Of a stretch of DNA of 37,305 bases, positions 17,422 through 21,788 are shown piece after piece. The position numbers and the translations under genes were made by a program. Each line of letters starts with the position of its first letter. Within the stretch, counting starts at the first letter, position 1. The notes under the pieces are model-generated. The model had not been told where the DNA came from, ran no database searches, and was given only the letters and a program-made list of their open reading frames with translations. The stretch comes from Chloroflexota bacterium (lineage in GTDB: Bacteria; Chloroflexota; Dormibacteria; Dormibacterales; Dormibacteraceae): assembly GCA_005889135.1 (NCBI GenBank), contig VBEK01000135.1:1-37305 (forward strand). Direction: 5' to 3'.

Positions 17422-17497
17422 GCGCCAATTGCCGGCGAAGGCATCAATCAGGCGTTGCGGATTGCACCCATCGCCGGCAAATGCACCAATCGCGGCA
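17422..17497. repeat. Two imperfect direct repeats with 42-bp spacing in a 250-bp intergenic region
   Basis: A 28-bp segment starting GCGCCAATTGCCGGCG at 17422 recurs at 17464 (starting GCACCCATCGCCGGCA) with 22 of 28 positions equal. The spacing of 42 bp is the same period as in the two arrays that flank the sugar operon, but the sequence is unrelated. The rest of 17375-17624 holds no convincing gene; weak promoter-like elements (TTGCCG at 17530, TAATTC at 17551) precede the SPFH gene. Confidence 0.5.
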
Positions 17498-17624
17498 GGA
17501 CGCGCGAAACCGCAAAAACCTGCGCATGGTTGCCGCTGAAACTGGGTAAGTAATTCTCTAATCGCCCCGTCTGGGCGCACCCTCGCATGAAGGGCAAGGA
17601 TCGAGCCCTTTGGAGGCAGGACAG

Positions 17625-19577
17625 ATGAGTGTTCTGCTCGAGTCCCTCCTGGCGTTTGCGGCCGTCTTCGCGCTGTACGCGCTGCTGCGCTCGATCGTCC
17701 AGATCGGCCCCGCCGAGGTCGGCCTGGTGATCAAGCGCGTTTCGACCAAGCACAACACCACCGACGGGCCCATCGCCTTCCACGGCGAGGCCGGCTACCA
17801 GGCCGAGCTGCTGATGCCCGGCGTCCGCTTCAAGCTCTGGCCCACGTACGCGGTCATGCGCTACCCGTGGGTCCAGGTCCCGGCGGGGGAGATCGGCGTC
17901 GTGATCTCGCAGATCGGCGAGCCGCTGCCCACGGGCGCCAAGTCGGCGGTGTACAAGCCGTCGTTCGGCAACTTCACCGACCTGGCCGCCTTCATCGGCG
18001 GCATGGGCCAGAAGGGCGTGCAGCGCCAGGTCCTGGCGCCCGGCACGCTGGCGCCGATTCATCCGGTCGCGTTTCTCGTCGTCACCGCGACCAAGGCCTA
18101 CGGCCTGCCGGTCGACCGCCAGATCGTGGCCAAGGGCCCGCTCTCGCCGACCTCCTTCGGGCTCCACCCCGACCAGTTCCGCGTGACCGTCATCGCCCCC
18201 AAGGGCGACCAGGACATGGTCGGCATCGTGACCACACTCGAGGGCGATCCCCTCGCGCCGGCGGACATCGCCTGCCGGATCGGCGGCTTCAGCGACATCG
18301 AGGCGCTCGAGCACCAGCCCGACGTGAGCGACTCGGAGCTCATCGAGGCTCTGCTGGGCAAGAAGAACGAGCTGCACAACAACTATCAGGACTTCCAGGC
18401 GTTCCTGGACAACGGCGGCCGGATCGGACTGCAGCACGACCCGCTGCTCTACGGCGCCTACCTGCTGAACCCCTTCCTCGTCCGGGTCGAGCCGGCCCCG
18501 ATGCTGGTCGTCAACCAGGGCGAGGTCGCGGTCATCAAGGGTTACGTCGGGCTGCCGACACTCGACACGTCCGGCCCCGAGTTCAAGTTCGGCTCTATCG
18601 TCCAGCCGGGCCACCGCGGCATCTGGCGCGAGGCGCTGCGTACCGGCAAGTACCCACTGAACCCGCGGATCTACGCGGCCGAGAAGGTGCCGACGTTCAT
18701 CCTTACCCTCAACTGGGCGGAGGCGAGCTCGATCGCCCACAACCTGGACGCGCAGCTCAGCCCGATCGAGGGCAAGAGTCGCGAGGGCTTCGTGTTCAAA
18801 ATCGACCTGCAGGTCCAGATCCACGTGCCCGACACCAAGGCGCCCAAGGTGATCTCGATGGTCGGGTCGATGCAGAACCTGGTCAACGAGGTGCTGCAGG
18901 CGGCGGTGGGCAACCACTTCCGCAACACCCTGCAGGGCCTGGAGGCGGTGCGCTTCATCGAGACCCGCGACCAGGTGCAGTCGGCGGCGCTGGAGGCGAT
19001 CTCCCGCTACCTCGCCGCCTACGAGGTGGAGACGCGCGGCGTCTACATCCAGGACGTCGCGTTCCCGCAGGAGCTGGTCGCCGTGCTCACGCGCCGGGAG
19101 ATCGCCAACCAGGAGAAGGCCACCTTCCAGGAGCAGCGCGATGCGCAGACGGTGCGCATCGACCTGGAGAAGGCGCGCGGGACCGCCGACATGCAGGCCG
19201 AGCTGGCCAAGGCGCAGGTGTCCGTCGACATCAACCGCGCCCGCGCCAACGCGCGCAAGGCGGAGGCGGACGGCGAGGCTGCTTACGTCCGGGTGACCGG
19301 CGAGGCCGAAGGCTCGCGCCGTCGGGCGATCGGACTCGGCGACGCAGCGGCCGTCGAGGCGCTCGGCCTGGCCAAGGCCAAGGGCTACGAGGCCCAGGTC
19401 GCGAGCCTGGGCTCGACGCCCACGGCGGCGGTCGCCATCGCGAACGCGCTCTCGGAGGGCAAGCTCGACGTCGTTCCCGAGGTGCTTGTCACGGGCGGAG
19501 GCGGCGCGCTCGAAGGCCTGGCCGCCACCTTTATGCGGTCGCTCAACGGCCACGGTGAGCCGAAAACCGAGAAGTAA
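17625..19577 (+). CDS. Large flotillin-like SPFH-domain membrane protein
   Basis: The 650-residue protein has an N-terminal hydrophobic segment (~6-25), then SPFH/band-7 sequence (IGPAEVGLVIKRVST at ~27-41; VNQGEVAVIKGYVG near 297-310; and LQVQIHVPDTKAPKVISMVGSMQNLVNEVLQAAVGNHFRN near 395-435). An Ala/Glu/Arg-rich coiled-coil region spans ~490-590 (EKATFQEQRDAQTVRIDLEKARG onwards). It is longer than typical flotillins (~450-520). Such proteins form oligomeric rings or scaffolds at membrane microdomains. The ATG at 17625 has an ideal GGAGG site at 17612-17616 and is preferred over an in-frame TTG at 17610. It is followed by a strong intrinsic terminator, so it appears monocistronic. Confidence 0.88.
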   Translation: MSVLLESLLAFAAVFALYALLRSIVQIGPAEVGLVIKRVSTKHNTTDGPIAFHGEAGYQAELLMPGVRFKLWPTYAVMRYPWVQVPAGEIGVVISQIGEPLPTGAKSAVYKPSFGNFTDLAAFIGGMGQKGVQRQVLAPGTLAPIHPVAFLVVTATKAYGLPVDRQIVAKGPLSPTSFGLHPDQFRVTVIAPKGDQDMVGIVTTLEGDPLAPADIACRIGGFSDIEALEHQPDVSDSELIEALLGKKNELHNNYQDFQAFLDNGGRIGLQHDPLLYGAYLLNPFLVRVEPAPMLVVNQGEVAVIKGYVGLPTLDTSGPEFKFGSIVQPGHRGIWREALRTGKYPLNPRIYAAEKVPTFILTLNWAEASSIAHNLDAQLSPIEGKSREGFVFKIDLQVQIHVPDTKAPKVISMVGSMQNLVNEVLQAAVGNHFRNTLQGLEAVRFIETRDQVQSAALEAISRYLAAYEVETRGVYIQDVAFPQELVAVLTRREIANQEKATFQEQRDAQTVRIDLEKARGTADMQAELAKAQVSVDINRARANARKAEADGEAAYVRVTGEAEGSRRRAIGLGDAAAVEALGLAKAKGYEAQVASLGSTPTAAVAIANALSEGKLDVVPEVLVTGGGGALEGLAATFMRSLNGHGEPKTEK

Positions 19578-19587
19578 ACAGACGAGG

Positions 19588-19616
19588 AGGGCCGGTTCAC
19601 CGGCCCTTCTTTTTTT
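19588..19616 (+). terminator. Rho-independent terminator of the SPFH gene
   Basis: AGGGCCGG, a TTCA tetraloop and CCGGCCCT form an 8-bp stem at 19588-19607, followed by a T-rich tract (TCTTTTTTT). It is the clearest intrinsic terminator in the window and lies 10 bp after the stop. Confidence 0.92.
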
Positions 19617-19676
19617 GAGGACATGCCCGGGGCCGCGCAAGTAAGCTGCGCACGCCCAGTTGGCCACAACACCACG

Positions 19677-21788
19677 ATGAAGAGATCTCCGTGGGCCTCC
19701 CTCGCGCCGGCGGGGATTCTCCTTTTCTCGCTTTCGTTCACCGCCCTGCAGGTCTTCGCCGCCCCCTCGGGCTGGCTCAACGTCGACGGCAACATCCAGT
19801 TCGCGGGCGGCGGCGGCACCGTCGACTGGGCCAACTCCGGCCCTGCCGGCGCCGCCTGCGCGAACGGCGGCGTCAACATCACCGGCTCCGGCGGCCTCTT
19901 CAACTGCGGCGTCGCCGGGGTGGGCGGCAATCCGCCCACGGCGCCCACCCTGACGCCGGCCGCCGCGGCCGACCCCACCATCATCTCCGCCACATTCATC
20001 GTCGACCCGATCTCCGGCGACACCGCTGGGTGTGGCGGCGACGACCCCACGACGCTGTCCGGCGGCGGGCCGAAGAACGGCGACGCCATCAACTCCTACA
20101 CGGTCAGCGCGGGCACGGTGCCGGCGAAAACGGAGCTCAGCAACATCTACGCCGTGGCTCACACCAAGGCCGACGGCCATCCCGAGCTCTACTTCGGCGC
20201 GGAGCGCTTGGTGAACAACGGCGACAGCCATATGGACTTCGAGTTCCTGCAGAGCACGACGACGCGCACCGCCGCGTGCGGCGGCGGTTTCATCGGCAAC
20301 CGCAGCGAGGGCGACCTGCTCGTCGCCGTCGACTTCACGAACGGTGGGGCGCTCGCGGGCTTCTCCGTGTGGCAGTGGCACTGCGCCGCCGAGCCGGGGC
20401 CGCAGCCGGCCGATGGCACGGTGTGCAACCCGACCGGGGTGCCGCACTACGAGCAGAACCTCACGCCCGCCTTCGCCGCGCTCACCGTCAACGCCGCCAC
20501 CATCGCGTGTGGCGGTTGGGTGTGTCGCGACGAGGTCACAGGCAACGCCACCCAGGTCGCGGCCAACGACTTCCTCGAGGGAGGCGTCGACCTCGAGGGC
20601 ATCCCCTTCACTGGCTGCTTCCGCTCCTTCCTTCCGCACACGCGCACCGCGCAGTCCTTCACCTCGGTGCTGAAGGACTTCGCGGGCCCCGTCGACTTTC
20701 ACTCCTGCAAGGACCCGGCGACCACCAGCACCAGCTCGCCCACGGGCGGCGGCGTGCCGGCGGGCTCGACCGCGACCGACACCGTGACAGTCACCAACGG
20801 AGGCGCGGGCCTCAACCCGACGGGGACCATGACGTTCTTCATCTGCAACCCCGGCCAGGTCGCCGCCGGCGGCTGCGTCTCCGGCGGGACGCAGGTCGGG
20901 GCGGTCAAGGCGGTCGTCGCCGGCTCCGCGACCTCCGACGCCACCGCGCCGCTGCAGTTCAACGGCAAGTACTGCTGGCGCACTCTCTATACGCCCGATC
21001 CATCGCTGGCCGGCGTGTACGAGCCGGCCACGCACACGAACGCGACGACGGAGTGCCTCACCGTCTCCGGCGGGGTCGACCTCCCGAACACCGGGGTCCC
21101 CGACCTGCCTCTGGTCCGCGCCGCGGTACCGCTGGCGGGTGTGCTGGTGGTGCCGCTCTTGCTGCTCGCGCTCTACTGGAGCCGAGGCCGGGCCGTGACG
21201 GCGCTGGTGATCGCGGGCCTGGTCGCGGGCGCGAGCCCGGCTCCTGCCCGCGAGGCGCCGCCGGCGCATCCCGCGACGGCCGGCCAAGCGACGGCAGCGC
21301 CCTCGGCAAGCTCGCCCGCGCCGTCAAGCGTGCGGCTCGACACCGTAAGGGCGAGGGTGGGCGGATGGCGGCTTGTCATCCCGCGCCTTGGCGTCGATGC
21401 GGTGATCGAGCCGGTCGGCGTCGACTCGGCAGGGGCCATGGCATCGCCCGCGGGGCTCGACACAGTCGGCTGGTTCAACCGTGCCGCTTCGCCGGGCGAC
21501 CCCGGTGACGCGGTGATCGCCGGGCACTACGGCGCCGGCGAGCCCGGCGTATTCCGCAAGCTGCGCTTCCTGCGCCCGGGCGACCAGATCGACGTCGTCT
21601 GGCCAAGCGGCCGCACCGTCTCGTTCGAGGTTGCCTCCTCGCAGACCGTTTCCGCGAGCGCCCACCCGGCCGGACTGTTCTCGCGCGCCGGCCCGGCACG
21701 CCTAAGCCTCATCACGTGCTCGGGCGCCTGGCTCCAGGGACCGGCCACCTACAGCGACCGCCTGATCGTCACTGCCATGCTTGCCTAG
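19677..21788 (+). CDS. Secreted surface protein with LPNTG sorting signal fused to a sortase domain
   Basis: The 703-residue frame has an N-terminal signal peptide (~1-28, ends VFAA), a Cys-rich extracellular region (~30-340), and an Ig-like domain (~355-462, with TGTMTFFICNPG and YCWRTLYTPDP). Next come LPNTG (469-473), a transmembrane helix (~478-502) and the basic SRGR. After a second hydrophobic stretch (~507-520) and a Pro/Ala/Ser linker, a sortase domain (~550-703) carries the catalytic triad: His617 in IAGHYGAG, Cys681 in LITCSG and Arg695 in YSDRLIV. Sortases cleave at LPxTG and join the protein to a cell-surface amine; here substrate and enzyme are one polypeptide. A separate sortase starting at a GTG near 21195 would need no stop codon in between and cannot be excluded. 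The SDR gene follows 4 bp later. Confidence 0.82.
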   Translation: MKRSPWASLAPAGILLFSLSFTALQVFAAPSGWLNVDGNIQFAGGGGTVDWANSGPAGAACANGGVNITGSGGLFNCGVAGVGGNPPTAPTLTPAAAADPTIISATFIVDPISGDTAGCGGDDPTTLSGGGPKNGDAINSYTVSAGTVPAKTELSNIYAVAHTKADGHPELYFGAERLVNNGDSHMDFEFLQSTTTRTAACGGGFIGNRSEGDLLVAVDFTNGGALAGFSVWQWHCAAEPGPQPADGTVCNPTGVPHYEQNLTPAFAALTVNAATIACGGWVCRDEVTGNATQVAANDFLEGGVDLEGIPFTGCFRSFLPHTRTAQSFTSVLKDFAGPVDFHSCKDPATTSTSSPTGGGVPAGSTATDTVTVTNGGAGLNPTGTMTFFICNPGQVAAGGCVSGGTQVGAVKAVVAGSATSDATAPLQFNGKYCWRTLYTPDPSLAGVYEPATHTNATTECLTVSGGVDLPNTGVPDLPLVRAAVPLAGVLVVPLLLLALYWSRGRAVTALVIAGLVAGASPAPAREAPPAHPATAGQATAAPSASSPAPSSVRLDTVRARVGGWRLVIPRLGVDAVIEPVGVDSAGAMASPAGLDTVGWFNRAASPGDPGDAVIAGHYGAGEPGVFRKLRFLRPGDQIDVVWPSGRTVSFEVASSQTVSASAHPAGLFSRAGPARLSLITCSGAWLQGPATYSDRLIVTAMLA

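Follow-up and report, generated by a model that had tools for sequence, protein, structure and literature searches.

The window analysed here, a stretch of 37,305 nucleotides of contig VBEK01000135.1 from a Chloroflexota bacterium (GCA_005889135.1, a MAG of 221 contigs), carries on its plus strand a frame that, when translated from the ATG at 19677, encodes a protein of 703 amino acids without internal stop (19677..21788). The stop-free stretch around this gene extends from 19578 to 21785, and an in-frame alternative ATG at 19623 would add 18 residues to the N-terminus. A terminator-like hairpin with a T run, recognised by eye on the plus strand (19589..19616), separates the fusion gene from an SPFH gene upstream of it. 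A minus-strand frame of 1279 amino acids (17448-21287) was taken, by assumption, as a by-product of high G+C content.

All the features of the encoded protein lie on the plus strand. A signal peptide (residues 1-28, 19677..19760; by eye, with predicted cleavage after VFA) is followed by a Cys-rich N-terminal surface domain without Pfam match (residues 29-345, 19761..20711), an Ig-like beta domain (346-465, 20712..21071) and the sorting motif LPNTG (469-473, 21081..21095), present also in the relatives G006, G031 and G033. Hydropathy places a first membrane helix right after the motif (about residues 483-501, 21123..21179), then a short basic turn, SRGR, predicted to be cytoplasmic (503-506, 21183..21194), and a second hydrophobic segment (about 507-523, 21195..21245) that starts at an internal GTG at 21195. 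A Pro/Ala-rich linker modelled with low pLDDT (524-562, 21246..21362) leads to a class F-like sortase domain (563-703, 21363..21785).

Homologues of the Cys-rich domain were found in Chloroflexi MAGs and in one Acidimicrobiaceae MAG. The window's genome holds a second copy of the N-terminal domain (L033:6290-9286, G000:C30), followed by repeat domains in a frame cut by the contig end. The full-length AlphaFold model had a mean pLDDT of only 56.8 and was unusable for the geometry of motif and enzyme; within it, residues 341-460 were modelled confidently as a beta domain (block pLDDT 80-93), the first membrane helix appeared with low confidence at residues 488-501, and the PDB matches were mostly generic Ig folds.

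Sortase domain and predicted membrane hairpin

The sole Pfam match of the whole protein at E values up to 0.1 was Sortase (PF04203), at residues 566-702 (E 4.9e-19; 68.7 bits against a cut-off of 26.6; profile positions 1-124 of 125). The best-matching sortase class of NCBIfam was class F (NF033748), with an E value of 2.9e-29, followed by class GN (8.2e-07); as the class F score of 101.7 bits is below the curated cut-off of 166, the enzyme is called class F-like only. A separate model of residues 500-703 reached a mean pLDDT of 72.9, the ten-residue blocks of the sortase lying mostly at 77-97 with one at 64. The residues that we take to be catalytic are His617 (21525..21527), invariant in the alignment of relatives, and Cys681 (21717..21719) and Arg695 (21759..21761), each kept in all six of the seven alignment rows that reach it.

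LPNTG, the helix and the basic SRGR fit the layout of an LPXTG sorting signal, except that this one is internal, with 230 residues after the motif, rather than C-terminal. From residue composition alone, the chance of an LPxTG in a given stretch of 100 amino acids is about 0.6%. The NCBIfam model LPXTG_anchor (TIGR01167) gave no match to the whole window protein at E up to 1, nor was this protein among the nine matches in its own genome at E up to 10; the motif stretch (searched with a query one letter off) and the two relatives with the same frame did not match either. This model is too short for selectivity over the genus, with matches in all 14 control genomes.

The two hydrophobic segments are predicted to form a two-helix hairpin; with its basic turn inside, LPNTG and the sortase would both lie outside the membrane. 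An earlier note, made from the window alone, had read on one frame the order of elements described above and a complete sortase domain with His617, Cys681 and Arg695, and both readings were confirmed. The structure prediction that it had proposed for the enzyme points the same way: in Foldseek, the model of residues 500-703 had 50 listed matches, all of them solved sortases (best E 1.2e-10). The note's placing of cleavage site and enzyme on the same outer side agrees with the topology, as far as a predicted topology goes.

Conservation of the fusion and related gene arrangements

The search set consisted of 101 genomes, the window's own (G000) and 100 relatives. The frame is also open in G006, of the same genus (L035, 66% identical, on a contig that begins at window residue 46), and in G031, of another genus (L036, 59% identical). 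None of the three genomes has a hidden stop or frameshift between LPNTG and the sortase, an outcome that the earlier note had named as fatal to its reading. Pairwise dN/dS was 0.19-0.57 in all segments, one value not being computable, except in the second hydrophobic segment of 19 codons, where it was 0.20 against G006 and about 1 against G031; identity to G031 in this segment is only 16-21%. In the linker, synonymous changes are near saturation in the comparison with G031. LPNTG is identical in the three genomes, in a surrounding segment that is only 47-57% identical. Downstream, synteny with G006 covers SDR, luciferase-like and enoyl-CoA hydratase genes. The fusion is patchy in the genus, being present in 2 of 17 genomes, whose assemblies are incomplete. 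These results confirm that the fusion is real and conserved. Scaffold names of the relatives' MAGs give depths in cm, which we read as soil.

The N-terminal domain was followed through 19 loci, 18 fetched and the window itself; weak matches to the Ig region in G095:C292, G019 and G005 were left out. N-terminal part and sortase share one frame in ten of them, namely the window, L035, L036, L041 and six frames of family f3 from five genomes. Contig ends cut six of these ten frames; among partial frames, nothing but the Ig end is visible in L044, L046 and L047, and the sortase is incomplete in L038 and L040. Each of the other loci is either unfused or interrupted by a contig end; one of them, L043, shares its genome with the fused, contig-cut L044. 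Separate genes were seen at 1 of the 19 loci, and the homologues thus do not consistently show the two separate genes that would have told against the earlier note. L041 keeps LPNTG with no helix ahead of the sortase, and the six f3 frames join the N-domain, or its Ig end, to a sortase with neither LPxTG nor helix. Cis-processing is therefore not universal to the fusion, and a role of fused sortases that needs no motif is a real rival.

Other substrates are joined to sortases on the same plan. Four repeat proteins found in the same class (L065, L066, L067 and L071) end in LPNTS, a helix, a basic stretch, a second helix and a sortase, and Pfam confirmed DUF11 in L065 and L067. Spacing from motif to sortase is steady within each type, 84-88 residues in the window type and 125-129 in the LPNTS type. 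Counterparts in family f3 (L068, L050 and L214) carry LPGPPNGG on sortase fusion proteins; L050 (G067), a DUF11-type fusion, was counted for its motif only, because its assembly-shortened frame ends ahead of any catalytic Cys. In the f3 hairpin sortase fusions L214, L216 and L219, LPGPPNGG stands in the place of LPxTG and is a candidate for a changed sorting motif.

A DUF11-type hairpin-sortase query matched at least 185 of 400 Chloroflexota genomes at E up to 1e-8, mostly via the sortase alone. Among 20 loci fetched from that search, L169 and L171 have a motif without helix (two LPNTG and YPNTG, respectively) and L172 (DUF4397) has the hairpin with a decayed motif. The frame of L169 (G258:C277), of 1212 amino acids and open at the contig start, runs from carboxypeptidase-regulatory-like domains and the two LPNTG to the sortase with no intervening helix. 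Five further Chloroflexota loci (L170, L173, L174, L175 and L184) were judged by eye to have extracellular domains and then a sortase, with no motif. Within Actinomycetota, to which the Acidimicrobiaceae MAG (L063) belongs, class F matched in at least 77 of 346 genomes, and 20 long sortase frames were fetched, 19 of them from these listed matches, selected by length and not at random. One of the 20 (L198) has no LPxTG but combines DUF4397 with a hairpin and a sortase, another (L194) has repeats ahead of the sortase and no hairpin, and no substrate of this kind was seen in the other 18; by eye, most of their long upstream parts appear to be spurious frame extension. All the fusion counts are lower bounds, among the matches listed. 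The domain order seen in the window thus recurs in G006 and G031, and with other substrates too, although some homologues lack the helix and six of f3 lack both helix and motif.

The same partners also occur as neighbouring genes. At L037 (G023), a gene for an LPNTG-helix-basic substrate precedes a sortase gene and overlaps it as GTGA, and L099 and L100 have an LPNTG substrate gene directly 5' of a stand-alone sortase. At L165, L166 and L167 (G263, G277 and G221, of one genus in another family), an LP[ANH]TG substrate and a sortase share one frame, apart from a single TGA between them. Loss of such an intergenic stop is the simplest route to a fusion, and the fusion is likely to descend from neighbouring substrate and sortase genes whose separating stop codon was lost.

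In a tree of 77 sortase domains, those of the window, G006 and G031 group together (100/99) inside a weakly resolved group of 20 that includes many stand-alone sortases, and the f3 fusions group elsewhere with the DUF11 fusions (86/91). AU tests rejected a single clade of the window and f3 types (p 0.011), of these two with L041 (p 0.032) and of the window type with the four DUF11 types (p 0.004), and did not reject one of the window type with L041 (p 0.34); these p-values are only a guide, since the groups were named after the tree had been seen and the bootstrap had not quite settled. As the grouping of window and f3 types was rejected, the same kind of N-domain has probably been joined to sortases at least twice.

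Distribution of the sorting motif and processing of the chain

In the window's genome, 14 sites of LP[NDSG]TG type (F allowed in the first position) were read, and only that of the window protein precedes a convincing helix. A looser threshold added two weak hydrophobic stretches, an unconvincing 76-residue tail and a GTGKT nucleotide-binding loop in a protein that is cytoplasmic by eye. Such sites (14) do not outnumber those of the reversed pattern used as control (20), so that their counts carry little weight and the helix context does; the test in this genome was limited to sites of this type, and the assemblies are incomplete. LPNTG itself was found at 12 sites in five genomes, against 6 in the control. 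In G000, G006, G031 and G033, no LPNTG but the fused one has a plausible surface-protein setting; it is the only one with a helix in G006 and G031, and the only LPNTG at all in G031 and G033. In G023, where the pair is unfused, the adjacent substrate carries LPNTG with a helix, and there are two more FPNTG tails. These two FPNTG-helix tails (L223 and L231) are similar and of 47 residues each.

The variants gave a comparable picture. LPNTS (Ser as TCN) occurred at 21 sites in the four genomes of that type, against 5 in the control, 17 of them in frames long enough; four sites, one per genome, precede a helix, each on the fused chain. LPGPPNGG-type sites numbered 8 in the 18 f3 genomes (control 4; 7 shown), and the three that precede a helix are all on fused chains. 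Across the genomes and variants checked, a motif in a convincing sorting context occurs only on the chain of the sortase itself or, where the pair is unfused, in the neighbouring gene and the two FPNTG tails. Within this range the motif is essentially private to its enzyme's chain, which favours self-processing.

The explanation that we favour, at somewhat better than even odds, is that a dedicated pair of one enzyme and one substrate has been fused into a chain that cuts its own LPNTG, the sortase staying in the membrane. The signal peptide would export the chain, and the two-helix hairpin, with its basic turn inside, would hold it in the membrane. Outside, LPNTG would stand about ten residues above the first helix and the sortase at the end of a linker of about 40 residues, so that the two could face each other. 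Cys681 would cut at LPNT/G, either in its own chain or in an adjacent copy; the N-terminal Cys-rich/Ig protein, bound as an acyl-enzyme, would then pass to a cell-wall amine, and the sortase would be retained with the hairpin. The earlier note had proposed release and attachment of the N-terminal partner in cis; the privacy of the motif speaks for this, and the f3 fusions deny it generality. A wider reading, which we offer tentatively and at slightly less than even odds, is that of a natural self-anchoring protein: private anchoring in cis would leave a free, membrane-held enzyme, and the plan would have arisen several times in Chloroflexota by stop loss, motif and enzyme diverging together (LPNTG, LPNTS and LPGPPNGG).

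The same arrangement might serve processing in trans, the fusion ensuring one enzyme per substrate and their co-localisation and the cut being made by another copy or by a stand-alone sortase. The unfused neighbours at L037, L099 and L100 must act in this way, and the window's genome does have a second sortase, the only other one found, about 9 kb from a LAATG-helix-basic repeat protein (L034:1-870, G000:C215). A similar tail was read also in G008, and in at least six others of the genus (G001, G004, G005, G012, G014 and G016) a full-length match, at the same profile positions, lies 7-9 kb from a listed sortase. The contig of the second sortase thus offers a substrate of LAATG and not of LPNTG type; with the motif confined to the fused chain in the genomes checked and the predicted hairpin setting it beside its enzyme, we regard processing in trans as unlikely.

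We think it rather unlikely, too, that the motif is a relic and that a membrane-held multidomain sortase acts on other proteins, its N-terminal domains serving for positioning. The f3 fusions without motif and helix and the five motif-free sortases behind other extracellular domains would suit such a role, and sortases with long N-terminal parts are already in print, as a class E sortase of 792 residues has its sortase domain at 575-775 (PMC13251363). Against a relic stand the unchanged LPNTG of G000, G006 and G031 in their diverged surroundings, the LPNTG kept even without a helix in L041 and L169, and the LPNTS kept in all four DUF11 fusions read.

The internal start that the earlier note had pointed to near 21195 could allow the gene to yield a separate sortase as well as the long chain. 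A GTG does open the second hydrophobic segment there, with GAGG about 7 bases upstream (by eye), and in the unfused sortase of L037 a GTG occupies a comparable place, where it overlaps the stop of the substrate gene. This start is poorly kept, since G006 and G031 have start codons nearby with no clear ribosome-binding site by eye, and production of a second protein is accordingly quite improbable. That an assembly or sequencing error joined two genes has a negligible chance and can be set aside, even for a MAG of many contigs and with gene pairs separated by a single in-frame stop elsewhere (L165-L167), given the same open join in three assemblies, mostly under purifying selection and in one relative with synteny, and the further fusions built on the same plan.

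Comparison with known sortase systems

Sortases are textbook trans-acting enzymes, mostly with many substrates each. Fusion to a substrate would, if the favoured explanation is true, make the pairing of substrate and enzyme readable from single genes, so that the specificity of motif and enzyme could be compared across lineages.

Dedicated systems, in which a single sorting enzyme is encoded next to its one target, have been described for LPXTG and for GlyGly-CTERM (PMC3237569). The dedicated LPXTG/sortase cassettes (e.g. TIGR03784; same source) resemble the window in that one enzyme and one signal protein are encoded together, and differ in being adjacent genes, whereas the window has one chain with an internal signal. 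The physiological role of class F sortases is unknown and neighbouring genes are suspected to encode their substrates, according to PMC13251363. Class F (NF033748) is the best-matching family of the window enzyme, which shares the sortase fold and the catalytic residues and differs in scoring below the cut-off and in carrying a substrate at its own N-terminus; a defined substrate for these poorly understood enzymes would follow if the favoured explanation holds. The motif-free multidomain sortases (L170, L173, L174, L175 and L184) likewise have extracellular domains N-terminal to the sortase, but no LPxTG-helix unit ahead of it.

Open-access titles and abstracts, a scope outside which most subscription journals fall, yielded no report of a naturally occurring fusion between a sortase and its sorting signal. 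Parallels come from the laboratory, where engineered single chains of LPETG and sortase cleave themselves, partly even during synthesis (PMC2901362; PMC11561820). In BISOP (PMC2901362) and STEPL (PMC11561820), as in the window, sortase and sorting motif share one chain, and STEPL releases its target protein from the fusion. These constructs differ from the window in being man-made for purification or labelling, with no membrane hairpin and no cell-wall acceptor, and in BISOP the sortase comes first. If it cuts itself as proposed, the window protein would be a natural counterpart of these self-cleaving sortase fusions.
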